Source: Myxococcales bacterium (GTDB lineage Bacteria; Myxococcota; UBA4151). From it: a stretch of DNA of 39,375 nucleotides. The notes under the pieces were generated by a model. The model was not told the origin of the DNA. It searched no databases and was given only the letters and a program-made list of their open reading frames with translations. The stretch spans positions 1 to 39,375 of the forward strand of contig PBND01000055.1 of NCBI GenBank assembly GCA_002722845.1, given 5' to 3'. Position 1 is the stretch's first letter; every line of letters begins with the position of its first letter. Positions 1,233-34,093 of this stretch are shown here, in pieces. The position numbers were made by a program, and so were the translations under genes.

Positions 1233-1324
1233 AAGCCCTTCTTACACGTCCAAGGCCCGGCCTCCAGAGCTAGGCTTAACGGGCACCTCCCCCCCATGCT
1301 AGGGCCGACCTGGGAGCTTTGCCA

Positions 1325-3673
1325 TTGAACCAGCCAAGCGCCATCGAGATCCCCAGCGAACTACCGGTCCTCGCCCTGCGAGACTTGGTGGTTTTTCCAT
1401 TCATGATCGCGCCGATTCGCGTTGGGCGCCGAGCGTCGATTGCGGCCATCGAAGAGAGTTTATCCCAAGGCAGACTCGTCTTCCTGGTCACTCAGAAAGA
1501 CCCCCGAACGGAGAGCCCTGAGCGGGATGATCTGCCGACGATCGGCTGCATCGCGATGGTCATGCGCATGCATCGGGTGGGCGATGGAGGCATGAAGGTG
1601 CTCGTTCAGGGGCTGATTAAGGCCCGTCGAGTTGGCATCACCCAGACCCACCCCTGCATGCGGGTCAGCTTCGAGGAAATCGAAGATATTGAACCCAGCG
1701 AACTCTCGGGAGAGTGCCAAGAACTCATTCAGGAGCTGCGGCAAAATCTCGACGCATTGCACAAGCTCGGTCGTGGCCCCGGCAATGATACAGTCATGGT
1801 GCTGAAGGGGGTCCAGGACCCGGGCCGCCTCGCCGACCTCACCGCGGCCCAACTGCAACTGCCGGCCTCCGAGGCCCAAAAGGTCCTTGAGATCAACGAT
1901 CCCGTGGAGCGCCTGCGGGTTGTTAGCGGGCTTTTGAAGCGCAAACTGGACTCCAGCGGAAGCGAAGAGAAGCGCCCCCGTCGGCTCACACGGGCGCAGC
2001 GGGAAGGCTTTCTCCGGGAACAGATGCGCCAAATTCGCCGGGAGCTCGGCGATCAAACAGAGGATGACGACCCCGTCGCCGAACTTCGGGAGCGGATCGA
2101 AGGCCTCGACCTCCCCGAAGAAGGGCAGGCCGAAGCGCTCAAACAGTTACGTCGACTTGAGCACCTCAATCCGGAGAGTACGGAAGCATCCAATGTTCGT
2201 AGTTATCTGGAGTGGATCTGCGACCTGCCCTGGAACATCGAGACAGAAGATGAGCTGGATGTCCAAGAGGCGGAGAAAATCCTCGACGATGATCATTATG
2301 GCCTGAAGGAGGTCAAAGAGCGCATCCTTGAATACCTGTCCGTGCGGCAGAAGAATCCGGATCTCAAGGGCCCCATTCTCTGTCTCGTTGGGCCCCCCGG
2401 TGTCGGCAAAACCTCCATCGGGAAGAGTATCGCCCGCGCCCTCGGGCGGGAATTCTCAAGAATCGCCTTGGGCGGCATGCGGGATGAAGCCGAAATACGA
2501 GGGCACCGCCGCACCTACGTGGGCGCCATGCCCGGTCGTATCATCCAGGCCATGAAGCTGGCGGGAACGATCAATCCAGTCATCATGCTCGACGAACTCG
2601 ACAAGGTCGGTGCGGACTTCCGAGGTGATCCGGCCAGTGCTTTGCTTGAAGTCCTTGACCCGGAGCAGAATCACAGTTTTCGGGATCATTATATCAACCT
2701 GCCCTTTGATCTCTCCAAAGTCCTCTTCCTCGCCAATGCGAACCTGCCGGATCCGATCCCTTCGGCTTTAAGAGATCGCCTCGAAATCATCAGAATCCCC
2801 GGCTACACGGCCCGGGAGAAAACCGAGATCGCAAAACGCTACATCGTCGACAGGCAAGCGAGCCAAAATGGGCTGAACGAGGATGAGATTCACATCACCA
2901 CGCCAGCGATCAAGGCCCTGATTGAAGGCCACACCCGGGAGGCCGGGCTCCGGGAGTTAGAGCGCAAAGTCGGCACCATCTGCCGAAAGGTCGCTCGTCG
3001 CATCGTCAGCGGCGAAATTACCCGGACAACCATCACGCCGAAGGGGCTGAAGCGCTATTTAGGCCCCCCCCGCTTTAAGAGTGACCCCGAACTCACGGAA
3101 GACGCCATCGGCTGCGCCAACGGCCTCGCATGGACCCCTACCGGCGGGCAGGTTCTCGTGGTTGAAGCCAGTCTAATGAAGGGCAAGGGAAGCCTGATTC
3201 TCACGGGGCAACTGGGTGATGTCATGAAGGAGAGTGTGCGGGCTGCTCTGACCTATCTTCGGGCCAGGGCCGACAGCCTGGGACTCGACGTGGATGCCCT
3301 TCAGGAACAGGATCTCCATGTGCACGTCCCGGCCGGCGCGATCCCAAAAGATGGGCCCAGCGCGGGGATCACCATGGCCACTGTGATTCTCAGCCTCCTG
3401 ACCGGCCGACCGGTTCGACGCAACGTGGCCATGACCGGAGAGATTACACTGCGCGGCAGGGTGCTTGCGATCGGTGGTCTCAAAGAAAAGTCGATCGCCG
3501 CATTACGGGCAGGAATCGACACCATTTGTATTCCGCAAGGTAACGCGGTGGAGATCGACCAATTGCCAGATGAGGTTCGACGCAAGCTGACGATCGTCCC
3601 TTGCGAAGATATCTCAGAAGTCTTTGCGGTCGCGCTCGCTGAGGACTCCCCCCCGTGTCCGAGCGCCAGTTAA
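1325..3673 (+). CDS. lon: ATP-dependent protease La (Lon), first copy
   Basis: Complete Lon AAA+ serine protease that degrades misfolded and regulatory proteins in the cytoplasm. The order is a LON substrate-binding domain (about 10-200), a coiled-coil linker, an AAA+ module with Walker A GPPGVGKTS near residue 357, and a protease domain with PKDGPSAG and GGLKEKS. A TTG at 1319 is possible, but the GGGAG at 1312-1316 lies 8 bases before the TTG at 1325. With that start the catalytic pair falls at Ser679 and Lys722, the same numbers as in E. coli Lon. The 3' end overlaps thiL by 19 bases. A second complete Lon lies at 27427. Myxococcus xanthus also has two Lon proteases (LonV and LonD), but I cannot assign which is which. 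Confidence 0.95.
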   Translation: MNQPSAIEIPSELPVLALRDLVVFPFMIAPIRVGRRASIAAIEESLSQGRLVFLVTQKDPRTESPERDDLPTIGCIAMVMRMHRVGDGGMKVLVQGLIKARRVGITQTHPCMRVSFEEIEDIEPSELSGECQELIQELRQNLDALHKLGRGPGNDTVMVLKGVQDPGRLADLTAAQLQLPASEAQKVLEINDPVERLRVVSGLLKRKLDSSGSEEKRPRRLTRAQREGFLREQMRQIRRELGDQTEDDDPVAELRERIEGLDLPEEGQAEALKQLRRLEHLNPESTEASNVRSYLEWICDLPWNIETEDELDVQEAEKILDDDHYGLKEVKERILEYLSVRQKNPDLKGPILCLVGPPGVGKTSIGKSIARALGREFSRIALGGMRDEAEIRGHRRTYVGAMPGRIIQAMKLAGTINPVIMLDELDKVGADFRGDPASALLEVLDPEQNHSFRDHYINLPFDLSKVLFLANANLPDPIPSALRDRLEIIRIPGYTAREKTEIAKRYIVDRQASQNGLNEDEIHITTPAIKALIEGHTREAGLRELERKVGTICRKVARRIVSGEITRTTITPKGLKRYLGPPRFKSDPELTEDAIGCANGLAWTPTGGQVLVVEASLMKGKGSLILTGQLGDVMKESVRAALTYLRARADSLGLDVDALQEQDLHVHVPAGAIPKDGPSAGITMATVILSLLTGRPVRRNVAMTGEITLRGRVLAIGGLKEKSIAALRAGIDTICIPQGNAVEIDQLPDEVRRKLTIVPCEDISEVFAVALAEDSPPCPSAS

Positions 3674-4618
3674 TCGATCAGTTTGTTGGCCTCGCAAGGG
3701 GCTATAAGGACCCGAAAACACTGTTGGGGCCCGGCGATGATGCGGCCGTGATCGACCTGGCCCATGGGCCTGAGTGTATCAGCACGGACCAGTTCGTTGA
3801 AAATCAACATTTTCGTCATCGATGGATCGGGCCGGAAGACTTAGCAGGCCGCTGCCTTGCAGCCACCGTGAGTGATCTCGCTGCCATGGGGGCAACCCCC
3901 CGGTGGATCACCGTTGCGCTTACGCTCTCAAAGGCCCAGGATCGAGATTGGCTCATGGCTTTTGCCCAGCGATTTGGCCAAATCGTTGGCCTCTGGAATA
4001 TCGATCTGATCGGTGGCGACCTGACGCGGGGCGATCACACCTCCGTCTGTCTAACCATCGGTGGCACTGCACAAAAAGGTCGCCTGCTCCTGCGCCAAGG
4101 CGCTCGTCCAGACGATGGTATTTGGGTGAGTGGCAATCTCGGCGGGTCTTCCGCAGCCGTTGACTACCTCGAACGGGGGGGGGCGAAACCGAGGGCTTGT
4201 CGCTGATTTTTACGCTGTCCGGCACCGGGTCCTCTTGGGCTTAGCGCTCAATCGATCAGGGGTTGCCACCAGTTGTTGTGACATTTCAGATGGCCTTCTA
4301 ACGGACCTGACGAGCCTCCTCCACGACAAGTGCCGAGGTGCGCTCCTCGACATGAAGCGTCTGCCGGTCTCCCCCCTCGCAAAACGCGTTGCGACGGAAC
4401 TCGCCTGCTCCACCAGGCCATGGGTGCTCGATGGAGGAGAAGATTTCGAACTGCTCTTTACGGTCCCCCCCCATCGGGAGGAGGCCATGGGCGATCTGAG
4501 CGAGGCCCTTGCCGTGCCACTGACCCGAATTGGCACAATGGCTGAAACCCCGGGCATCGTGAACACCGAAGGCGGCCTGCTCGAACCGGCCGGCTGGGAT
4601 CCATTTCGGGGTTCTTGA
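3655..4618 (+). pseudogene. thiL: Thiamine-monophosphate kinase, frameshifted at a G9 tract
   Basis: ThiL phosphorylates thiamine monophosphate to the diphosphate cofactor. The first part (GTG at 3655) carries LGPGDDAAVID, the STDQFVENQHF segment, SDLAAMGATP and LIGGDLTRG. It stops at 4206 soon after a run of nine G (4175-4183). The remaining family sequence continues in the +1 frame with CDISDGLLTDL and LDGGEDFELLF and ends at 4618. Removing one G (eight G) restores one uninterrupted frame of normal length. Both halves are otherwise well preserved, so this is a recent event, a sequencing or assembly error, or a switchable tract. The start overlaps the end of lon-1 by 19 bases, suggesting coupled expression. 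Confidence 0.85.
4175..4183 (+). repeat. Nine-G homopolymer inside thiL
   Basis: Nine consecutive G residues sit exactly where the thiL frame shifts. An eight-G version would join both halves. Such tracts are prone to both replication slippage and sequencing error. Confidence 0.9.
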
Positions 4619-4660: not shown

Positions 4661-6349
4661 TTGAGTGAACCGGGACGGGCAAGTACCGATCTAGAGACCC
4701 TCGCCAAAGTCACGCGAGAGTTGGTCACCAGTCGGGACCCTCGGGCCCTGCTGTCCCGTTTAAATCAGATGCTTGCGGGCCGAGTGGAGTTTACCCGGGC
4801 CGCGATCCTGCTTTTCGAGCCGGGTGGAGAGACAGCCCAAGTGGTCGCCGCCACCGACCGGAGCGACGAAGAGGGCGTCTTGAGTCTGGATCTAAAAAAA
4901 TATCCGGAACTCCAGCGGCTCATCGAAACCCGCAATACCGTCCTGATCGAGGATGTTGCCTCGGACCCCTCCCTTGTCGGGGTCCGAAGCGAACTTGTCC
5001 GGGCAGGGGGTGGTGCCGCATTAATTCTCCCCCTGCTGTTCGAGGGGCGCCTAAAGGGCTGTATCTTCCTCCGCCGCCCAGTGGGGGGAGCATCTCCCAG
5101 CCAAGCCACTCTTCAGTTTGGTGAAGTGGTGGCAGGCACTTGTGCGACTGCATTACACCTGTTCGAAACCCTAGAGACGGCCCGACGACAGCAGGCTCAA
5201 GCCCAAAGAGCTCGCATGCTTGCGGAAAGCAAGTTGAAGGACAGCGCCCGATTCGAGGAGTTTTTTGAGTATGCAGCGGAGGGCATGGCCGTTTTGGACA
5301 TGCAAGGACGCATCCTGAGCGCAAACCTTGAAGGACAGCGCCTCCTAGGCTGCACTTTGTCCGCCCAGCCCCCCCGATTGGTTGACCTGGCTTCCCCCGG
5401 CGAAAGAGGACGAATCGAGCAGATGATCCATGGCTTTCAAGCCCAGGTGTTCCCAAGGGACTTTCATCTTCGACTCCACCGCCCCTCAGGGGAAGAATCG
5501 ATCCTGAGTCTGAGTTGCGGTGCCCTCGGCGGCAAGGCAGAAGGCGTGATCCTCTCCTTTCGAGAGATCACCGCCGAGATCCGCCTACAGCGGGAACTCA
5601 CCGCCACGAAAGACTTCCTCGAGAACCTGATCACGAGTTCTGCGGATGCGATCGTTGCGACAGAACTGACTGGGAAGGTCATCCTCTACAACAAGGCCGC
5701 GGAGCGCCTTTTTGAGCGGGAGGCCAATACGGTGTTGGGCCAGTTGCCCATGGCTGAACTGCAACCGGAAGGATTCTATCGGCAACACGTAGAGCAACTC
5801 CTAGATCAGGCTCAAACTGCCGAGTTATCGGCGCAGCGATCGGAGGTGCTCAGCGCCAGCGGAGCCCGTATTCCCGTGCGTCTGTCAGGAAGTCTTCTTC
5901 AAGAGGGCGGCCTCCCGGTGGCCCTGGTGTTTGTCCTGCAAGATCTCAGGGCTGAAATCCAACTTCAAGAGGACCTGGCCCGACGAAACAGTGAGCGAGA
6001 CGAGTTCGAAGGGGCTCTACTGATGGCCTCAACAGCAGCCCACGAACTGAATCAGCCACTCACCACCATCGTCGGGTTCAGCGAGATGGCATTGCAGCAA
6101 CTTGAAGCCGAACACCGAGCCAGGAAGGCGCTAGAGCGCGTCCGTGAGGCCTCGGAGCGTCTTGCCGAGCGCGTCCGCGACTTAGGTAAGCTCAAGCGAA
6201 TCGTTACCCGCTCCTATGGCGATGGCGCCCAAATTGTTGACCTAGAAGCCTCGACACGCACCACGGTCCCCCAAAATCCTCTGGGGGCCTTTGATAGGAC
6301 CTCCGAAGTCACCGACCAGTTCCCTACCCTGACGGAAGAAGACACCTGA
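4661..6349 (+). CDS. GAF-PAS-PAS sensor with HisKA domain but no ATPase domain
   Basis: A 562-residue cytoplasmic signalling protein without membrane segments. Residues about 10-165 resemble a GAF domain, followed by a short coiled coil rich in Gln, Ala and Arg. PAS-like domains lie at about 200-310 and 315-435, ending in typical S-box C-terminal segments. A HisKA-like dimerisation helix pair follows, with the H-box AAHELNQPLTTIVGFSE near residue 463. The protein ends about 90 residues later without the N, G1 or G2 boxes of an HATPase domain, so it probably cannot phosphorylate itself. It may be a phosphotransfer partner or a non-enzymatic sensor. The TTG start is preceded by AGGGGG at 7-base spacing. 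The stop overlaps the next ATG (TGATG), implying coupling to the LolA-like gene. Confidence 0.8.
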   Translation: MSEPGRASTDLETLAKVTRELVTSRDPRALLSRLNQMLAGRVEFTRAAILLFEPGGETAQVVAATDRSDEEGVLSLDLKKYPELQRLIETRNTVLIEDVASDPSLVGVRSELVRAGGGAALILPLLFEGRLKGCIFLRRPVGGASPSQATLQFGEVVAGTCATALHLFETLETARRQQAQAQRARMLAESKLKDSARFEEFFEYAAEGMAVLDMQGRILSANLEGQRLLGCTLSAQPPRLVDLASPGERGRIEQMIHGFQAQVFPRDFHLRLHRPSGEESILSLSCGALGGKAEGVILSFREITAEIRLQRELTATKDFLENLITSSADAIVATELTGKVILYNKAAERLFEREANTVLGQLPMAELQPEGFYRQHVEQLLDQAQTAELSAQRSEVLSASGARIPVRLSGSLLQEGGLPVALVFVLQDLRAEIQLQEDLARRNSERDEFEGALLMASTAAHELNQPLTTIVGFSEMALQQLEAEHRARKALERVREASERLAERVRDLGKLKRIVTRSYGDGAQIVDLEASTRTTVPQNPLGAFDRTSEVTDQFPTLTEEDT

Positions 6350-22637: not shown

Positions 22638-24029
22638 ATGGGTCTCGAGCACCGATGGAGTCAGTTCTTAGAGGCGGTGAAGACCGAAATTCACGCGACC
22701 TCTATGGAGCTTTTTGAACTCCTCGCTCCCGTCGAAGAAGGTGAGGACGAGTTGGTCCTCAGCCATCCCAGTGAGTTTATGGCCGGCGTTTGTGCCGACA
22801 CGAGCATGAATGGGATGATCTTTGACATGCTGGTGGCCCATTGGCCCGGAGCGCCGCCCAAGAGCGTCCGCGTCATCTACCGCCCAAACGAAGATCAAAC
22901 CGAACGGGCCACCTTGCCGCTCTTTCAGCGCCCCAGCGATACCGCCCCTCCCCCGCCCAGGCAGCCATCGGTGCCTGTCGCAGCCAAACCGAGCATCGGA
23001 AGTCCGCTCAACCGGGCGATGAGCTTTCAGGCCTTCATCTCAGACAACAGCAACGAAGAGGCCTTCTACGCGGCCGAGCGGTTCGCCAAGCTCGAAGATG
23101 CTGCCCACTTCAACCCCCTCTATATCCACGGTCAATCCGGCACTGGAAAGACCCATCTTCTTCACGCCATCGGCAACCACGTGAACAAGACGGCGCCCGA
23201 GCGACCCGTTCTCTACTTTACCGGTGATCAGTTCGCGACCATCATCATCGATCATATCCGCGCCCGACGGGTCGATCTGTTCCGGTCGGCAACCCAATTG
23301 GAGGGCGCCGTGGTCATTGTGGACGACGTGCAACTCCTGGCCAACAAAACCAAGACCATCGAAGAACTCTTTAACCTCTTCAATTGGCACCGTCTTCGTG
23401 GCGCCTTCCTCGCGTTCGCCTCCGACCTGCCGCCCGCGGAGATCCCCGGCCTATCCGAGCGCCTCGCAAGTCGCATGTCTGAAGGACTCGTCCTCACCGT
23501 CGCCACGCCCCTCTATGAGACCCGTGTCGCAATCGCTCAAACCTGGGCTGAGTCACTCGCCGGTAGTCGAGATGTCTTTGCCCCAGAGGTCTTCGAGTTA
23601 CTCGCCGACCTCTTCAACACCAATATTCGCGAACTTCAGGGTGCGGTGAAGCGCCTCAACCTTCGGCGAGAACTCAAAGGTCTCGATCACCTCGACCTCG
23701 CCACCGCTCGGCAAATGTTGAGTGTCGAGATGGCCCAGCGGCAGGCGAAAAGCCCCGAGGACATCGCGCGGGTGATTTGCGATCAGGAAGGTGTCTCCTT
23801 TGACAAGGTCCGGGGCAAAGGCAGGACGACACGCCTGGTCCAAGCGAGGATGTGGATTTGTGGCCTGCTACGGGAAGAGACGACGCTGAGTCTGGTCGAA
23901 GTGGGCAAGCTCCTGCAACGGGATCACAGTACCGTGCACCACAGTCTTGGGCGTTATGAGGATCATCTAAAGACCCCTGCAGGCCAGGCCCGCCGGGAGG
24001 CGCTCCGGCGAGCGCTTCGGGCCTCTTAG
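22638..24029 (+). CDS. dnaA: Chromosomal replication initiator DnaA (divergent)
   Basis: DnaA binds oriC and melts it to start replication. The 463-residue product has an N-terminal domain I (about 1-90), a Pro-rich linker, an AAA+ domain with Walker A GQSGTGKTHLL (about 165-175) and Walker B VIVDDVQLL, and a DNA-binding domain IV with the signature RDHSTVHHS near residue 428. Several usually invariant stretches differ. The GPSNRFA-type start of domain III reads DNSNEEA, and the sensor-1 SDRPP reads SDLPP. Identity is secure because of domain order and the rpmH-rnpA neighbourhood. It is divergent from rpmH. Confidence 0.95.
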   Translation: MGLEHRWSQFLEAVKTEIHATSMELFELLAPVEEGEDELVLSHPSEFMAGVCADTSMNGMIFDMLVAHWPGAPPKSVRVIYRPNEDQTERATLPLFQRPSDTAPPPPRQPSVPVAAKPSIGSPLNRAMSFQAFISDNSNEEAFYAAERFAKLEDAAHFNPLYIHGQSGTGKTHLLHAIGNHVNKTAPERPVLYFTGDQFATIIIDHIRARRVDLFRSATQLEGAVVIVDDVQLLANKTKTIEELFNLFNWHRLRGAFLAFASDLPPAEIPGLSERLASRMSEGLVLTVATPLYETRVAIAQTWAESLAGSRDVFAPEVFELLADLFNTNIRELQGAVKRLNLRRELKGLDHLDLATARQMLSVEMAQRQAKSPEDIARVICDQEGVSFDKVRGKGRTTRLVQARMWICGLLREETTLSLVEVGKLLQRDHSTVHHSLGRYEDHLKTPAGQARREALRRALRAS

Positions 24030-25973: not shown

Positions 25974-27430
25974 CGCCCATGGCAGCATACATAGAGGGGC
26001 GCTGGTACCCCGAAGGCTCCAAAACCCTGACGGTCATCAGCCCCGCGGAGGGCGAAGCCCTTGAATCCTTCCCCTTCTCCCCAGCCCATAGCGCCCAAGC
26101 GATCGAGGCCGCTCGCAAGGCTTTTCCAGCCTGGGCAGCCCTGGGACTTGAGGGCCGGACCCCCTATCTCCGGCGCCTGCAGGAAGCGCTCGCTAGACGC
26201 AAAGAGTCCATCGCTAAACGCATCAGCCTAGAAGTGGGCAAGCCCCTCTGGGAATCCCGGGGCGAAGCGGGGGGACTGGCCCCCCGCGTGGATCTCGTCT
26301 TGGGGCCTATCGCCGAGGACATCAGCGATATCGTCCTCCCCAATGATGGCGGGCGAGCCTGTCATCTCCCCCTCGGTGTTGTGGCCGTCCTCGGCCCCTT
26401 CAACTTCCCGGCCCATCTCGCCAACGGTCAGATTTTACCCGCACTCGCAGCGGGCAACACCGTCATCCTAAAACCCAGCGAAAAAGCCCCGGGTGTCGCC
26501 CAACTCTATGGGGAGGCCTTTGCCGAGGCCGACTTGCCCCCAGGGGTTTTCAACTTGGTCCAAGGGGATGCTGAAACTGGCGGCGTCCTGGTCGCCTCGC
26601 CGGAAGTGGATGGCTTACTATTTACCGGATCGACCCGCGTCGGCCTGGCGATTCTTGCCGCGACCCACCAGCAACCCCACAAACTCGTCGCCTTGGAGAT
26701 GGGTGGTAAAAATGCCGCCCTCGTCGCGGCCGACGCCCAATTAGGACAAACCGCTGAAGAACTCCTGATGGCCGCCTATGTCACCTGTGGACAACGCTGC
26801 ACGGCCAGTAGTCAGGCCTTCGTCCATCGGGATGTGATCGATGAACTCTCCGACCGACTTGCGGCCCTCGTCCCCCGGCTTAGCGTCGGCCACCCCCTAG
26901 AGGAAGAAGCCTTTATGGGCCCGATCATCGATCAGCATGCACGCCAACGCCTCCTCAATTTAAATCAAGCAGCCCAAACGGCCGGTGTCGACACCCTGGT
27001 GGCCGGTCAGGCCATCGATCGCCCCGGGGCTTATCTCACCCCCGCACTGCGACGGGGCCCTTGGCAGGACACAACCTACTTCCAATCTGAGCATTTTGGG
27101 CCGGATCTGGTACTCATCCCCTACCAGGATGAGGATGACGCAGTGCGCACCATGACCCAAAGCGGCTACGGGCTTGCCGCCAGCATCTTTACGGCCGACA
27201 GACAACGTTTTGAGCGCTTAGCGCCCCGGCTGCGAGCCGGGATCGTGAACTTCAACCGGAGCACGGTCGGCGCCAGCGGCCAACTGCCCTTTGGTGGTTG
27301 GGCTCAATCGGGCAATCATCGCCCCGGTGCCCGGTATGCCGGCCGGCTGGTGAGCGCCGCTCAGGCTCGACTCCACGGCCCAGCGCCTCTTCCTAACCAA
27401 CTCCTTAACTGCCTTGGAGCCCAGTCATGA
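25970..27430 (+). CDS. astD: Succinylglutamate-semialdehyde dehydrogenase
   Basis: AstD oxidises succinylglutamate semialdehyde to succinylglutamate with NAD. The 486-residue aldehyde dehydrogenase has GPFNFPAHLANGQILPALAA, KPSEKAPGV, FTGSTRVGLAI, the catalytic Glu in ALEMGGKNAA (about 243) and the catalytic Cys in VTCGQRCTAS (about 275). GPFNFPAHLxNGHIxPALxAGN is typical of AstD. The GTG start overlaps the astA stop by 4 bases, and the stop overlaps the lon-2 start by 4. A second in-frame ATG lies three codons on. Confidence 0.93.
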   Translation: MTPMAAYIEGRWYPEGSKTLTVISPAEGEALESFPFSPAHSAQAIEAARKAFPAWAALGLEGRTPYLRRLQEALARRKESIAKRISLEVGKPLWESRGEAGGLAPRVDLVLGPIAEDISDIVLPNDGGRACHLPLGVVAVLGPFNFPAHLANGQILPALAAGNTVILKPSEKAPGVAQLYGEAFAEADLPPGVFNLVQGDAETGGVLVASPEVDGLLFTGSTRVGLAILAATHQQPHKLVALEMGGKNAALVAADAQLGQTAEELLMAAYVTCGQRCTASSQAFVHRDVIDELSDRLAALVPRLSVGHPLEEEAFMGPIIDQHARQRLLNLNQAAQTAGVDTLVAGQAIDRPGAYLTPALRRGPWQDTTYFQSEHFGPDLVLIPYQDEDDAVRTMTQSGYGLAASIFTADRQRFERLAPRLRAGIVNFNRSTVGASGQLPFGGWAQSGNHRPGARYAGRLVSAAQARLHGPAPLPNQLLNCLGAQS

Positions 27431-29829
27431 CGGAAAAGTCTTTTCCTGGCGAACTCGGTATTCTTCCGCTCCGAAACGATATCTTCTTTCCCAATGCCTT
27501 ACTGCAACTGACGGTGGGAAGACCCCGTTCGGTCAATCTTTTGAAGCGTCTAGAAGCGGGCGAAATCCAACTCGGAATCGTCGCTCAGCGGGACCCGAGA
27601 GAAGAAGATCCAGGACTGGATGATCTCTTTCGGGTGGGAACTCGGGCCAAGGTCATCAGCATGATGCCGACGGCCACGGACCGCTATCAGCTGCTCGTCA
27701 AAGGACTCGAGCGCTTCGAGTTGAAATCGCTGAGCGAGAAAAATGGCCACCTGACGGGGGAGGTTGAACAACTTGAGACCCAGGGCGGGGAGAGCGACCG
27801 CAGCCGAGAGCTCGCCGAAGACCTGCGTAAGAGGGCACTAGAATATGTCGATTTGCGCCAGGACTTGCCCTCTCGGGCCAAGGGCGTTCTTGGCGGGCTG
27901 AGTGATCCAGACCGCCTCGCCGATTTCATTGCGGCCCACTTAGAACTGGATCTTGAGCGCCGTCAGGAGGTCCTGGAAGCCCTCGATCTGACCCAACGGC
28001 TTGAGATTGTGCTCGCGCTCCTCGAAGAGGCCTGCCAGGAACTGCAGATCACGTCGAAGACCACCCGCAATATCGAATCTGAGCGCAGCCGACATCAGCG
28101 GGAACAGTTTCTTCGCAGCAAGATGAAGGCGATTCGGGAAGAACTCGGTGAGGGTGAAGAGGACAGTGATCAAATCGATGCACTTGAATCACGCCTCCTC
28201 GCCAAAGACCCTTCGGAGGCCGTCAGGAAAATGGCTGCCCGGGAGTTCCGACGACTCCGCTCGATGCCTTCTTCCAGCGCCGAGTATGGTGTCATTCGAA
28301 ACTACTTGGAATGGCTTGCGGACATGCCGTGGAACCAACTCAGCGAAGACCGACTTGACCTCTCCCAGGCCGAAGAGATTCTCGACCGAGACCATTACGG
28401 CCTTGAGAAGCCTAAAAAACGGCTGCTGCAATTCCTTGCCGTCCAACAACTCAAAAAAGAGCTACAAGGCCCGATCCTTTGCCTCACGGGGCCCCCGGGC
28501 GTGGGGAAGAGTTCCCTGGCGAAGGCGATGGCCGAAGCCATGGGTCGCAACTTTGCGCGCATCGCCTTAGGCGGGGTCCGGGATGAGGCTGAGATCCGGG
28601 GCCATCGTCGCACTTATGTCGGCGCCTTTCCTGGTCGCATCGCCAAGGCCATGAAACAGGCTGGAACGATGAACCCCCTCATCCTCCTCGACGAGGTGGA
28701 TAAACTCTCCAATGACTTCCGGGGCGATCCGGCCAGTGCGCTTCTTGAGGTACTCGACCCAGAACAGAACCAAGAGTTCGCTGACCACTACTTGGATGTT
28801 CCACTGGATCTTTCCCGAGTCCTCTTCGTCGCCACCGTCAACAGCACATCTCCCCTGGCTCCAGCCCTTAAGGACCGCTTGGAGATCCTCGAGGTGAGCT
28901 CCTACACCCATCAAGACAAAGAGCATATCGCCCAGGGACACCTCATCCCTCGGCAACTGTCGCAACACGGCTTGGACAGCGAGGATCTAGAGCTTCTTGA
29001 GGGAACACTCGCCCGCCTCATCGATCACTACACACGGGAGGCCGGTGTTCGGCAGTTGGACAGAGAACTCGCCAGCTTATGCCGGGAAGCCGCCATCGCC
29101 CGAGTCAATGAAACGGGCCCCCTGCGGGTCGAGCCCGACCACCTGAATGATCTTCTGGGCCCGCGCAAATTCCACTCCGAACTCCCCGAACCCCATGCGC
29201 TTCCAGGCCTCGCCCTCGGACTTGCATGGACCCAGGTTGGCGGTGAGATCCTCCATGTGGAGGTGACGGATATGCCTGGCACTGGCAAGCTCAAGCTGAC
29301 CGGTCGCCTTGGCGATGTCATGAAGGAAAGCGGCGAGGCTGCACTCAGCTACCTGCGGGCCAACGCGATCAAGCTGGGGCTCACTGAGGATGCCCAGGAG
29401 AACCTGCTGGAAAAACGAGACCTTCATATCCACTTTCCCGCAGGCGCAACGCCAAAGGATGGTCCTTCTGCAGGGGTTGCGATGTATTCAGCCATCCTCT
29501 CCCTCCTGCGGAGCACCCCCCTACCCGCTGATCTCGCCATGACCGGTGAGATCTCACTCCGAGGTCGAATCCTCCCGGTCGGCGGTATTCGGGAAAAAGT
29601 CCTCGCCGCCCATCGGGCCGGCATCCCTCGAGTCCTCCTGCCCCGGCGTAACGAAAAGGACCTCGTGGAGGTGCCCGAGGCGGTGCGCTCCCAGTTAACG
29701 ATCCATCTGGTCGATGCTCTGGACGAGGTGACGGAACTCATCTTCGCCCAGGCCCAGCCCAATAGTCTCGACGGAGAAACCCGCTCCCAAAGCGACAGTT
29801 CCAAGCCATCGGAGCGCATCCGGACTTGA
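27427..29829 (+). CDS. lon: ATP-dependent protease La (Lon), second copy
   Basis: A second complete Lon (800 residues). It has the LON domain (LGILPLRNDIFFPNALLQL), a central helical region, Walker A GPPGVGKSSLAKA near residue 355, and the protease dyad Ser681 in PKDGPSAG and Lys724 in GGIREKV. A short acidic and Ser-rich tail follows the protease domain. It differs clearly from lon-1 in the N-terminal domain, which usually selects substrates. Start and stop overlap neighbours by 4 bases each (ATGA with astD, TTGA with dtd), so it is expressed with arginine catabolism and tRNA proofreading genes. Confidence 0.95.
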   Translation: MTEKSFPGELGILPLRNDIFFPNALLQLTVGRPRSVNLLKRLEAGEIQLGIVAQRDPREEDPGLDDLFRVGTRAKVISMMPTATDRYQLLVKGLERFELKSLSEKNGHLTGEVEQLETQGGESDRSRELAEDLRKRALEYVDLRQDLPSRAKGVLGGLSDPDRLADFIAAHLELDLERRQEVLEALDLTQRLEIVLALLEEACQELQITSKTTRNIESERSRHQREQFLRSKMKAIREELGEGEEDSDQIDALESRLLAKDPSEAVRKMAAREFRRLRSMPSSSAEYGVIRNYLEWLADMPWNQLSEDRLDLSQAEEILDRDHYGLEKPKKRLLQFLAVQQLKKELQGPILCLTGPPGVGKSSLAKAMAEAMGRNFARIALGGVRDEAEIRGHRRTYVGAFPGRIAKAMKQAGTMNPLILLDEVDKLSNDFRGDPASALLEVLDPEQNQEFADHYLDVPLDLSRVLFVATVNSTSPLAPALKDRLEILEVSSYTHQDKEHIAQGHLIPRQLSQHGLDSEDLELLEGTLARLIDHYTREAGVRQLDRELASLCREAAIARVNETGPLRVEPDHLNDLLGPRKFHSELPEPHALPGLALGLAWTQVGGEILHVEVTDMPGTGKLKLTGRLGDVMKESGEAALSYLRANAIKLGLTEDAQENLLEKRDLHIHFPAGATPKDGPSAGVAMYSAILSLLRSTPLPADLAMTGEISLRGRILPVGGIREKVLAAHRAGIPRVLLPRRNEKDLVEVPEAVRSQLTIHLVDALDEVTELIFAQAQPNSLDGETRSQSDSSKPSERIRT

Positions 29830-30263
29830 GGGCAGTCATCCAGAGAGTTCGACGGGCGCAGGTGTCTGTCGGCGGGGAAACGGTGGGACAAATCGACCAG
29901 GGCTTGCTCGCCCTCGTCTGCGCGATGGACAATGAAGAGCCCCAACTGGAGTGGTGGGCCAAGCGGCTGACTCATCTGCGCTGCTTCCCCGACGAGCAGG
30001 GCCGGATGCAGAATTCTCTCATCGATATCGATGGGGGCTTACTGCTCGTCTCCCAATTCACCCTCTCAGATGACGGGCGAAAAGGCCTCCGCCCAAGCTT
30101 CTCCCGGGCCAGTGACCCAGCGATCGCCGAGGCCCAACTCGAGGCCTTGGCGCAGCGCTGCCGGGGCTACCTTAGCCAGGTTGAAACAGGGGTCTTTGGG
30201 GCCGATATGCTCGTTGAGCTTAGCAATGATGGCCCCGTCACACTCATCCTCGACCACGCCTAG
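29826..30263 (+). CDS. dtd: D-aminoacyl-tRNA deacylase
   Basis: DTD removes D-amino acids (and glycine mischarged on tRNA-Ala) from tRNA. The 145-residue product starts MRAVIQRVRRAQVSVGGETV. It carries the active-site SQFTL motif and the cross-subunit Gly-cisPro segment NDGPVTLIL, with RPSFSRA between them. Length is standard. The TTG start overlaps the lon-2 stop (TTGA). It ends just before two parS sites. Confidence 0.95.
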   Translation: MRAVIQRVRRAQVSVGGETVGQIDQGLLALVCAMDNEEPQLEWWAKRLTHLRCFPDEQGRMQNSLIDIDGGLLLVSQFTLSDDGRKGLRPSFSRASDPAIAEAQLEALAQRCRGYLSQVETGVFGADMLVELSNDGPVTLILDHA

Positions 30264-30264
30264 G

Positions 30265-30280
30265 TGTTTCACGTGAAACA
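30265..30280. promoter_or_regulatory. parS site 1
   Basis: TGTTTCACGTGAAACA is a perfect 16-bp palindrome identical to the widely conserved chromosomal parS consensus bound by ParB. It lies one base after the dtd stop codon and 44 bp centre to centre from parS site 2. Confidence 0.97.
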
Positions 30281-30308
30281 ACTCTCCTCACACGCAACCA
30301 CGCCGAAC

Positions 30309-30324
30309 TGTTTCACGTGAAACA
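30309..30324. promoter_or_regulatory. parS site 2
   Basis: An identical 16-bp palindrome, ten bases before the rsmG GTG. Its last base is the first of the AGGA ribosome binding site of rsmG, so bound ParB would cover the leader of the rsmG-parA-parB-bactofilin operon. Confidence 0.97.
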
Positions 30325-30333
30325 GGACCTATC

Positions 30334-30894
30334 GTGAACAAGTTGGTGGTCGATTCTGTTCAGGGCGAAGTTCTTGAACCCCTCCGGCATCTTCTCTGGA
30401 AGTGGAATCAGGCCCACAACCTCTTCAGCCGTCGTCTCAAGCCAAACGACCTGGCTGAGCGACTCCTGGAGTGTCTCGCTTTCGCCCCCTTCCTTCCTCC
30501 TGGCTGTCGGGTGGCCGATCTCGGGAGTGGTGCAGGCCTCCCTGGTCTGCCGCTGGCCATGATTCGCCCCGATTTAGAACTCACGCTGGTGGAGCCGCGG
30601 GCCAAACGTTGCACGTGGCTGCGCTATGCAGCCCAACAACTGGATCTCCCTCTCACCGTCATCGAAGGCCGCTGGGACCCATCGTGGACGGACTTCGACC
30701 GAGTGATCAGCAGAGCGGTCTTCCCGCCCGCAGAGTTTCTTGAAGCTGTTGGCGCATTGGCTTCGGTCAGTGTCCAAATGACAGGACCTGATCCCGGCCA
30801 TGTAGAAGACCGTCAGCGCTATGAAATATGGCTCGATGGCCAGTCGAAAGGCTCAATCCTTGCAGGGGTAAAGCTGGCTTCCATAGGAGTCTAA
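30334..30894 (+). CDS. rsmG: 16S rRNA m7G527 methyltransferase
   Basis: RsmG (GidB) methylates G527 of 16S rRNA; loss gives low-level streptomycin resistance in other bacteria. The SAM-binding motif VADLGSGAGLPGLPLAMIRPD is present, followed by LVEPRAKRCTWLRY and the ISRAVFPPAEFL segment. At 186 residues it is slightly shorter than usual (about 205), mainly at the N-terminus. It begins MNKLVVDSVQGEVLEPLRHL from GTG. It precedes parA by 3 bases, the common gidB-parA-parB order, but mnmE and mnmG are not upstream here. Confidence 0.93.
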   Translation: MNKLVVDSVQGEVLEPLRHLLWKWNQAHNLFSRRLKPNDLAERLLECLAFAPFLPPGCRVADLGSGAGLPGLPLAMIRPDLELTLVEPRAKRCTWLRYAAQQLDLPLTVIEGRWDPSWTDFDRVISRAVFPPAEFLEAVGALASVSVQMTGPDPGHVEDRQRYEIWLDGQSKGSILAGVKLASIGV

Positions 30895-30897
30895 GCA

Positions 30898-31731
30898 ATG
30901 GCGACCGTGATCGCAGTGGCAAACCAAAAGGGTGGCGTGGGCAAGACGACGACCGCCGTGAATCTCGCGGCGAGCTTGGCCGCAGCGGAACGGCGAGTTC
31001 TCCTGGTCGATTTCGACCCGCAAGGCAATGCAAGCAGCGCTTTCGGCGTCCATTGTCAACTGGGCGACGCTCAGATCTACCATGCGCTTGTTCAGGACTT
31101 GAGCCCCGAAGAGGTGGTACAGCGAACGATTCTTGAGCACTTGGACCTGATTCCCGCCGGTCAAGATCTCGTCGGCGCAGAGATGGAGTTGGTCTCCTTT
31201 CTCGGTCGAGAAAGGCAACTAAGCCGGGTTATTGACGCTTTGAGGGATCAATACGACGAGATTCTGATCGACTGTCCCCCGAGTCTTGGCCTCCTCACAC
31301 TCAACGCGCTGGTTGCGGCGGACTCGATTCTGGTGCCGCTCCAAGCAGAGTTTTATGCGATGGAAGGCCTGAGTCACCTGCTCGAAACCGTCGATCGCGT
31401 ACGCGCGTCGTATCACCCTGATCTCAAGCTCGAAGGCATCGTCATGACCCTCGTTGACGGTCGCACCAGACTTTCTGATCAGGTGATTAGAGAAATCCGA
31501 AACTACTTCTCAAATCTTGTTTATCGTACTGATATACCAAGAAACGTCCGCCTTGCAGAGGCCCCAAGCCATGGCAAGCCAGCGCTACTTTACGACATCA
31601 CATGTCGTGGCGCTCAACGCTATCTTGATCTGGCCTCTGAATACCTTGAAAGGAATGCTCGTGAACAGCAACAGTCGCCTGGGCAAAGGCTTCAGCGCCC
31701 TGATGGACGAGAAGCGCCCGCAACGGTCTAG
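30898..31731 (+). CDS. parA: Chromosome partitioning ATPase ParA/Soj
   Basis: ParA is a DNA-binding ATPase whose gradient moves ParB-parS complexes. The 277-residue product has the deviant Walker A NQKGGVGKTTTAVNLAA (about 9-25) with the signature lysine, Walker A' in LLVDFDPQGNAS, and Walker B in ILIDCPPSLGLLTLNAL. DNA-contact residues typical of Soj are in the C-terminal half (RLAEAPSHGKPALLYD). A Gln-rich C-terminal tail of about 25 residues extends over the parB start, overlapping it by 71 bases. Confidence 0.97.
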   Translation: MATVIAVANQKGGVGKTTTAVNLAASLAAAERRVLLVDFDPQGNASSAFGVHCQLGDAQIYHALVQDLSPEEVVQRTILEHLDLIPAGQDLVGAEMELVSFLGRERQLSRVIDALRDQYDEILIDCPPSLGLLTLNALVAADSILVPLQAEFYAMEGLSHLLETVDRVRASYHPDLKLEGIVMTLVDGRTRLSDQVIREIRNYFSNLVYRTDIPRNVRLAEAPSHGKPALLYDITCRGAQRYLDLASEYLERNAREQQQSPGQRLQRPDGREAPATV

Positions 31732-32527
31732 CGACCTTCAGGAACTGCCGCTTAGCGCCATCGATAGGGACCCACAACAGCCACGCCAGGTCTTTGACGA
31801 TACGCTCCTCACGGAATTGGCCGCATCCATGGCATCCCATGGTCTCCTGGAGCCGATCGTCGTCTGTCCGACCGGCAGCGGCCGTTATCAAATCATCGCA
31901 GGAGAACGCCGGTTTCGTGCCGCTGGCAAGTTAGATTGGCAACGTATCCCAGCGGTGATTCGAGAAGCTCACGCCCAAACCAATACCATCCTGGCCCTCG
32001 TGGAGAATCTCCAACGCAGCGACCTTCACGTCCTCGAAGAAGCCGATGCCTACGCCCAACTGCAGCGGGATCATGGCTTCTCTCAGGGAGAGATCGCCCA
32101 GCATGTGGGCAAAAGCCGCTCATCGATCGCCAATGCGCTCCGCCTGTTGCGGCTCGGTGAGCCCAGCCGCTTAGCGCTCGCGTCGGGCCAAATTGATATG
32201 GGTCATGCGCGAGCACTCCTCGGCCTCCAAGAAGGCCAACAACAAGACGAATGCCTTCAGGCCTTGCTCGCCGGGAGCTGGTCCGTACGAAAGACAGAAA
32301 ACGAGATTAGACAGCGCCTCGCCGTCGAAAATACCGACGAGGAGCCCCTGAAACAGCCCAGAAAGGGGGAGTTGGTATGCGACCCGGAGTTGGAACGTTA
32401 TTTTGGCGTAGAAGTGATTCTCAAAGGCCGGCAGATTCGCCTGCAGGCGAAATCACCGGAGCAAGCGAAAACAGTCTTGAGCAAGATGAGTCAGTTGGTG
32501 AGCCTGGTGGAAGGAAACGAACAATGA
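31661..32527 (+). CDS. parB: Chromosome partitioning CTPase ParB
   Basis: ParB loads on parS and spreads as a CTP-dependent clamp. The 288-residue protein starts MNSNSRLGKGFSALM, the usual RLGKGLxAL start. It shows the CTP-binding GERRFRAAGKL motif and the ENLQRSDLHVLEEADAY motif, a helix-turn-helix (SQGEIAQHVGKSRSSIANAL) and a C-terminal dimerisation domain. The frame is open upstream to 31517 within parA. The GTG at 31661 has AAGGA at about 7 bases, whereas the ATG at 31655 is too close to it. The stop overlaps the bactofilin start by 4 bases. Confidence 0.95.
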   Translation: MNSNSRLGKGFSALMDEKRPQRSSDLQELPLSAIDRDPQQPRQVFDDTLLTELAASMASHGLLEPIVVCPTGSGRYQIIAGERRFRAAGKLDWQRIPAVIREAHAQTNTILALVENLQRSDLHVLEEADAYAQLQRDHGFSQGEIAQHVGKSRSSIANALRLLRLGEPSRLALASGQIDMGHARALLGLQEGQQQDECLQALLAGSWSVRKTENEIRQRLAVENTDEEPLKQPRKGELVCDPELERYFGVEVILKGRQIRLQAKSPEQAKTVLSKMSQLVSLVEGNEQ

Positions 32528-32913
32528 ACAAAGGAATGCATACCGTTCTCGGCCCAGAGGCCCGGTTTGAAGGAAGTCTCGATTTTGAAGGCGATGTTCG
32601 CATCGATGGATTTTTTCGCGGCGACATCGTCAGCCGAGATCGACTCATCGTTGGCGAAGGAGCCCGGATTGAGGGCACGATTCGGGTGGGAACCTTGATT
32701 CTCAACGGCGTCGTCGAAGGCGTCGTGATCGCGACGCAAGGAGCCGAACTCGAATCCCCCGGCCGACTTGTTGGGGAGCTTCACACGCCATCGCTGCAAG
32801 TGGCTCGTGGTGTCGTGTTAGACGGCACGGTTCACATGATGAACGAAGGTGTCGAACTCGCAGTGGTCCCCGAAGACCCGATGGAAGCCCAAAGCCCCCT
32901 CATTAGCGGTTGA
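32524..32913 (+). CDS. Bactofilin-family cytoskeletal protein
   Basis: Bactofilins polymerise into filaments as right-handed beta-helices without nucleotide. The 129-residue product is almost entirely the bactofilin domain: a short N-tail, then LGPEARFEGSLDFEGDVRID, GFFRGDIVSRDRLIVGEGA and further six-residue rungs to about 110, with an acidic tail. The ATG overlaps the parB stop (ATGA). In Myxococcus xanthus bactofilins anchor the ParABS machinery, so a role in chromosome segregation is a reasonable inference here. The 3' end overlaps the convergent gene by 11 bases. Confidence 0.9.
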   Translation: MNKGMHTVLGPEARFEGSLDFEGDVRIDGFFRGDIVSRDRLIVGEGARIEGTIRVGTLILNGVVEGVVIATQGAELESPGRLVGELHTPSLQVARGVVLDGTVHMMNEGVELAVVPEDPMEAQSPLISG

Positions 32914-34093
32914 GCAAGTTTTCAATCGCAGCCTGAAAATGGCTCAGGTTCACCAGAAGGACTCGCTCTTCTCGAACGAGCACCTTGCCTGGCTGTCCCG
33001 GTACTGGGTCGAGAAAGCGCCGCTCGGTCCAGCGAACCTCCTCCTGGGGTTCGGTGCCCCTAGGACCAAATCTCAAAGCGAGCGCGGCCGCGAGGTGAAC
33101 CTCCTCCTCGGGCACGGTTTCTCCTTTACCCCGACGCAGCAAAACATGAGGACCTGGCCCATTTCGGCGATGAAACCAAAGGTCACGCCCCCGGCCGAGA
33201 CCAAAGGTCACGCGGTGATTTGAACTGGCGTCCTTACCCACAAACACGTCACGCCCCGACGGGAGACAATAGCGCCGAACGCCCTTCTCTGCTCTTCCCC
33301 TTGCCGGCCCAGCGGCGGGTTGCACCGTTCTTCGTGGCGGCTCTTCACCTTCGATCGCTACCCATCGAGCTTGCAAATGCTCGAGGCGGTCAGCACGGCC
33401 TTTTTGACGCCGCTCTTCACGGCGGGCCTCTTTATAAAATCGATCCACCCGGTCCTGCAGGCTCTCTCCCCGGCGCCGATCGATTCGGTCCGCTGGCGCT
33501 TCCCCGTCGAAGGAAGGCAGCAAAAAGACCTCGGTCTCCTGGGTCACTTGGTGCCGGAGGGAGGAAAGCCGCTGACCAAAGGCTCGTAGGCCTTCCGGGT
33601 CTCCCGGATCGGCCCGCCTTAGCTCATCCATCTGCTTGCTGATCCGCCCCTGTTCCCGCGCTCGCCAAGAATCCACTTGCTCTTGTCGCCGTTTCGCTAA
33701 AAATTCCTCGGTGGGATAGGGGGTCTCCAAAGGCAGGCTGCTTTGCCAATCCCCCCCCAGAATCGAATGATCTTGCAGGCGAAGACCAGCCTGCCTCCGT
33801 CGCCAATTCAAAGCGAGCACCTGGCCCTCTTCCAAGGCCAACTCCCAAAGACCAGGGGCCTGTCGCAGGCCAATGATGGTTTTGCCGACCAAACGATGCC
33901 GCCAAGGCCCCTGGCTTCCATGGGGTTGAGATCCTTTAAAGGGCCCATCGGTCAGCAGGTACACCCCTGCCATCGGCTTTGCCATCAAGAGTAAGACATG
34001 AACGTGCGTTCGCCTCGAGCCCAGTTGAAGATGCAATGCATCGTCTTGAGGCCGGCGTAGCCCTTGGATTCGAAGGGGAAGTAAAAGGCTCAA
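32903..34093 (-). CDS. Compact NFACT-family (RqcH/Tae2-like) protein
   Basis: A 396-residue relative of RqcH/Rqc2, which bind ribosome-nascent-chain complexes in rescue. The C-terminal third is a clear NFACT-R domain: GRDVFVGKDASSNHRVTFGL, DLWFHRRNGPGPHVLL, and PGQPGKVLVREERVLLV. The middle (about 160-280) is an Arg/Glu-rich coiled coil. The N-terminal part (1-150) resembles an abbreviated NFACT-N, but the DR motif used by RqcH for tRNA binding is not visible. Canonical RqcH has about 550-570 residues, so the protein is 150 or more shorter. The TTG at 34093 overlaps the stop of the upstream barrel gene (TTGA); the frame upstream of it runs inside that gene. Confidence 0.75.
   Translation of the reverse strand: MSLLLPLRIQGLRRPQDDALHLQLGSRRTHVHVLLLMAKPMAGVYLLTDGPFKGSQPHGSQGPWRHRLVGKTIIGLRQAPGLWELALEEGQVLALNWRRRQAGLRLQDHSILGGDWQSSLPLETPYPTEEFLAKRRQEQVDSWRAREQGRISKQMDELRRADPGDPEGLRAFGQRLSSLRHQVTQETEVFLLPSFDGEAPADRIDRRRGESLQDRVDRFYKEARREERRQKGRADRLEHLQARWVAIEGEEPPRRTVQPAAGPARGRAEKGVRRYCLPSGRDVFVGKDASSNHRVTFGLGRGRDLWFHRRNGPGPHVLLRRGKGETVPEEEVHLAAALALRFGPRGTEPQEEVRWTERRFLDPVPGQPGKVLVREERVLLVNLSHFQAAIENLLNR

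Follow-up and report, generated by a model that had tools for sequence, protein, structure and literature searches.

Two identical 16-bp palindromes of the parS type lie directly in front of a parA-parB gene cluster in the 39,375-nucleotide stretch of Myxococcales DNA analysed here (the window, contig C55 of its own genome assembly). This position raises the question of whether the pair serves as the centromere of the chromosome, as a control element of the genes behind it, or as both. The two palindromes are very probably the ParB-loading centromere (parS) of this chromosome. This assignment rests on the sites themselves, their uniqueness in the assembly of their own genome, the parS-type residues of the adjoining ParB and the conserved placement of such sites in relatives.

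The parS pair and its surroundings

Sites 1 (30265–30280) and 2 (30309–30324), both unstranded, are exact copies of the palindrome TGTTTCACGTGAAACA and provide the window with two exact matches to the consensus TGTTNCACGTGAAACA expected of a chromosomal ParABS system. They are spaced 44 bp start to start, with 28 bp in between. Site 1 begins 2 bases past the last base of the dtd stop codon. The final base of site 2, A 30324, is also the first base of AGGA (30324–30327, + strand), a Shine-Dalgarno-like motif whose 6-base spacing to the GTG marks it as the probable ribosome binding site of rsmG. An earlier note on this DNA had described two identical palindromes 44 bp apart in the dtd–rsmG gap, the second sharing a base with the ribosome binding site; the coordinates agree, in the latter case provided that the GTG is the start. 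Its range, 30264–30334, comprises the gap and the first base of this GTG. Both sites are located inside the gap (30264–30333), but they do not fill it as had been stated, since they cover only 32 of its 70 bp.

No further parS was found in the window at up to 3 mismatches, in line with the earlier reading. In 100 dinucleotide shuffles of the window, the mean was 0.05 matches at the same tolerance, and none of the 100 contained two. The genome-wide scan for the 16-mer that had been proposed covered the own genome (2,679,101 bases in 92 contigs, completeness 69.98) and, with 2 mismatches allowed, returned only these two sites; further parS may be missing from this count because the assembly is about 70% complete.

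The gene order around the pair is lon, dtd, parS pair, rsmG, parA, parB, bactofilin, with dtd and all genes after the pair on the + strand. The D-aminoacyl-tRNA deacylase gene dtd (29826–30263) has a TTG start, overlaps the end of lon by 4 bp and matches PF02580 as well as TIGR00256, the latter above cut-off. The product of rsmG (gidB; 30334–30894, GTG start) matches PF02527 above the gathering score and reaches 95.7 bits against TIGR00138, just below the cut-off of 99.5. Three bp further on, parA (30898–31731) encodes a Walker-type ATPase (PF13614, with KGGVGKTT in the translation), and parB (31655–32527) starts 77 bp inside parA. The parB product contains PF17762 and PF02195 (matched on 31658–32527) and a GERRFRA box, and scores above the TIGR00180 cut-off. 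The bactofilin gene (32524–32913, a chosen start) overlaps parB by 4 bp and matches PF04519 on the longer frame 32377–32913. Upstream, an HTH gene, an astA-like gene, an astD-like gene and lon also abut or overlap. The locus thus combines a parA carrying the Walker motif with a linked parB carrying ParB_N and HTH_ParB, as in known ParABS systems. Sequence search, gene families and uniqueness in the window together support the earlier identification of the sites as parS beside rsmG-parA-parB-bactofilin. Their description as part of the operon leader holds insofar as they adjoin rsmG; the promoter that it presupposes in or near the gap did not appear in a scan of 29800–33300 for promoters of the sigma-70-like type, where 0.8 were expected by chance. 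A + strand terminator was not found in the gap either. With no promoter found, the cluster may be transcribed by read-through from the tightly spaced genes upstream. Elsewhere, the window contains two full-length lon protease genes (1319–3673 and 27427–29829), both far over the TIGR00763 cut-off.

The dnaA gene (22638–24029) is located 6.2 kb from the parS pair and is preceded by rnpA. Neither DnaA boxes (TTATCCACA or TTWTCCACA) in the window nor a GC-skew sign change near dnaA were found, so that proximity to oriC rests on dnaA and rnpA, both 6 to 8 kb away; their position suggests an origin nearby. With 282 bits, the window DnaA falls short of the NCBIfam equivalog cut-off of 344. The low score and the box-free window perhaps reflect a divergent initiator or origin.

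Residues R155 and G183 of the window ParB match R173 and G201 of Caulobacter ParB and are invariant in 13 aligned sequences, the window included. The consulted part of one study (PMC7383237) describes these Caulobacter residues as absolutely conserved among ParB proteins but altered in Noc. The window protein has the R and G of ParB, not the Q and R of Noc, at positions that were also aligned with Noc chains. Against NCBIfam it scores higher with the Noc model (216 bits, below the cut-off of 315) than with the general ParB model (163 bits, above cut-off). Its relatives of solved structure include Noc, Spo0J and ParB chains, with KorB chains more distant. The residues of the window ParB are therefore of the parS type rather than the Noc type, which makes the sites almost certainly a ParB-loading centromere.

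Placement of parS in relatives and beyond the phylum

The class comprises three genomes, our own and two sisters. Both sisters keep the order lon, dtd, parS, rsmG, parA, parB, bactofilin, and both have one TGTTCCACGTGGAACA in the dtd–rsmG gap, their sole genome match at 0 or 1 mismatch; sister G002 has one additional match at 2 mismatches. In both sister loci (L059 and L060), GAGTTTTCAACA, slightly like a weak DnaA box, lies 9–10 bp upstream of parS, a place where the window has no such block. The block has one copy in G001, two in G002 and a single one, at a different location, in G000.

We surveyed 58 genomes (our own and 57 relatives). An rsmG match was present in 54 of them, and in 31 it was linked to parA, that is, located less than 4 kb upstream. 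Sites with no more than 2 mismatches to parS were counted if they lay between the rsmG and parA matches or within 500 bp ahead of the rsmG match. By this count, parS occurs around the rsmG junctions ahead of parA in all 31 linked loci, which represent 16 families. No linked locus has a parS inside parAB or within 3 kb downstream of parB (a stretch complete for 26 of the 31), and 638,785 shuffled bases gave no match. The parS placement of the window is ordinary among its relatives.

By BLAST match ends, parS lies upstream of rsmG in 20 linked loci and between rsmG and parA in 12, one locus having both. By reading frames, sites in 18 of the 31 are clear of the rsmG and parA frames, and 10 loci are uncertain owing to the start codon. 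The sole counted parS of three genomes (G028, G032 and G046) is within the 3′ end of rsmG, 22 to 27 bp before the parA match, and G043 has one parS inside rsmG and another before parA. At least two leader-region parS, by match position, are found in 13 of the 31 loci, with a pair at most 50 bp apart in nine. A bactofilin gene follows parB in 20 loci by automated count, and in 21 once the window, where this gene overlaps parB, is added.

The remaining 23 genomes with an rsmG match were classed as unlinked, having no parA or rsmG match in the region taken or a gap of more than 4 kb. Their rsmG region contains parS in 12 and lacks it in 11. In two genomes with slightly longer rsmG–parA gaps (G016, 4003; G047, 4709), parS is found upstream of parA. 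Other arrangements were also observed. The parS of G006 (L113 6148–6163) overlaps the 3′ end of parA, ahead of parB. In family f4, two parS are about 1.82–1.89 kb apart (L067 of G026; L061, L062, L063, L066, L070, L072, L076 and L077). In G026, the site at 4437–4452 touches the ATG of a gene and the site at 6267–6282 precedes rsmG, placing parS at successive gene junctions; judged by its start, the gene at the first site may be mnmG (gidA).

A wider set consisted of the best 80 loci among the ParB-alignment matches listed. They span many phyla, with one uncultured Archangium among them, and six of the 80 have no linked parA. Among these matches, 29 of the 74 loci with linked parAB have a leader parS by match position, three have it inside parAB, seven downstream within 3 kb, and 39 have none in the locus. 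In four of the 29 leader loci among the matches listed (L170, L173, L174 and L176), parS lies only inside the rsmG frame, and these include two Mesorhizobium records and one Rhizobiaceae MAG. In three Rhizobiales loci (L173 5530, L174 5483 and L176 2886), parS is in the 5′ part of the rsmG frame, so that the centromere doubles as coding sequence. Location of parS ahead of parA is thus common beyond the phylum too, and not peculiar to the window.

Probable centromere function and possible feedback on the par operon

By analogy with known ParABS systems, ParB, the product of the third gene in the adjoining cluster, would bind both palindromes, close as a CTP clamp and slide to flanking DNA. The resulting ParB–DNA complex would then be moved by ParA, leading to segregation. 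In Pseudomonas aeruginosa, a single origin-proximal parS is reported to suffice (PMC4368675). Because the sites precede rsmG-parA-parB-bactofilin and touch the rsmG ribosome binding site, ParB, bound or sliding, may in addition reduce transcription of the operon that encodes it; such self-repression by ParB is plausible.

Several described systems resemble the window, as far as the consulted parts of their reports go. The ParABS locus of Bdellovibrio bacteriovorus also has an rRNA methyltransferase gene, parA, parB and bactofilin in a row with two parS upstream, but in that locus parA is separated from the methyltransferase gene by a further gene, bd3907, and the parS sites were cloned in separate 242-bp and 330-bp fragments; the DNA context of parS decides ParB clustering there (PMC10547168). 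In Myxococcus xanthus, the bactofilin gene bacM likewise follows parA-parB, with which it is co-transcribed, and parS is upstream of parA; however, 22 parS form a 3-kb cluster about 4 kb upstream of parA, compared with two at rsmG here (PMC3899335, PMC5703909). The single chromosomal parS locus of Thermus thermophilus adjoins parA as well, but lies inside gidB, as in three of the 31 relatives and unlike the window (PMC4409726). The gidB-parA-parB locus of Mycobacterium bovis BCG has parS before gidB (rsmG), and ParB control of genes was proposed for it in 2008; there, parS overlaps the −10 element of a promoter and parA contains a second parS, whereas the window has no known promoter (PMC2346475). 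In P. aeruginosa, parS3 and parS4 are intergenic, as in the window, and lie beside promoters; in the consulted part of that report, the genes shown to be repressed by ParB are PA0011 and PA0013 rather than those of the par operon (PMC5521831).

Whether parS is kept before the par genes because bound ParB represses rsmG-parA-parB-bactofilin is a separate matter. Such a role would link negative feedback to centromere occupancy or replication; it would add to the centromere function and be compatible with it, and we consider it possible but rather unlikely. In its favour, all 31 linked loci carry parS ahead of parA, at shifting positions, and 18 have parS clear of both frames. It also has parallels in the direct repression of adjacent promoters by ParB at the intergenic parS3 and parS4 of P. 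aeruginosa (PMC5521831) and in the proposal published for the gidB promoter of M. bovis BCG (PMC2346475). No sigma-70-like promoter was found in the scan of 29800–33300, however, and a parS near parAB is already predicted by centromere linkage alone. The frame check weakens the idea further, as it put some sites inside or possibly inside genes, including the three relatives with their sole counted parS inside the rsmG 3′ end. Beyond the phylum, this placement is less consistent: among the matches listed, 29 of the 74 loci have a leader parS by match position, four of them only inside the rsmG frame, and 39 have none in the locus. According to the consulted parts of the sources, the P. aeruginosa genes beside the intragenic parS1 and parS2 are not under control (PMC5521831), and B. 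subtilis genes adjoining parS are unresponsive to loss of Spo0J (review PMC7022226). Moreover, since the window genes overlap or abut, a 16-bp site is most easily accommodated in the dtd–rsmG gap. A more far-reaching version would make one locus, two parS within 60 bp, both the sole centromere and the par-operon operator in this lineage. ParB loading would then set the synthesis of ParA, ParB and bactofilin, centromere copy number and occupancy would directly influence the partition machinery in return, and contact of the duplicated site with the ribosome binding site would sharpen the switch. We regard this combination as doubtful.

The pair could instead have been selected as RNA, its palindromes forming a long stem in a read-through transcript that hides the rsmG ribosome binding site. 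The predicted fold of 30240–30360 does pair site 1 with site 2 at −36.7 kcal/mol (z −2.86), and only 2 of 200 shuffles were as stable. Yet any two copies of a palindrome can pair in this way, and the stem is not conserved because both sisters have one site only, so that we judge selection for it to be very improbable. Chance or decayed sequence without function deserves practically no credence. No point in its support was found; against it stand two exact copies where 0.05 matches per window are expected even at 3 mismatches, and the variant that occupies the equivalent gap in both sisters, itself a perfect palindrome.

With the pair read as a centromere, the window adds a small centromere together with its genes from a little-sampled lineage. 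In all linked relatives that were compared, parS keeps its place shortly ahead of parA, for the most part at the rsmG junctions. The occurrence of single-site and double-site leaders makes chromosomal ParB feedback on its own operon testable.

Origin of the second site and parS spacing

A repeat search places both sites in an imperfect direct repeat on the + strand (82% identity, 44-bp spacing). Its first 38-bp copy (30243–30280) consists of the dtd 3′ end and parS 1, and its second (30287–30324, also 38 bp) of the spacer and parS 2. Outside the palindrome, 15 of 22 flanking bases are identical, with a shuffle p of ~1e-4 that is to be read with multiplicity, because every adjacent pair at most 110 bp apart was tested. 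The repeat points to a 44-bp tandem duplication as the probable origin of parS 2.

The window and the regions of its relatives contain 13 adjacent parS pairs with spacings of no more than 50 bp, and these spacings range from 38 to 50 bp. A fixed spacing rule is ruled out by the start-to-start distances of 25–30 bp in the wider set (L144, L154, L188 and L199). Among pairs no more than 50 bp apart, the window and G052 have repeated flanks, and G029 has them in weaker form (11 of 22, p 0.004); among more widely spaced pairs, they occur in the parS arrays of G049, G053 and G055. In G052 (L064 5301–5406), three parS follow one another at intervals of exactly 45 bp and their spacers are identical (29 of 29 bases), apparently through a recent tandem duplication of a centromere site.
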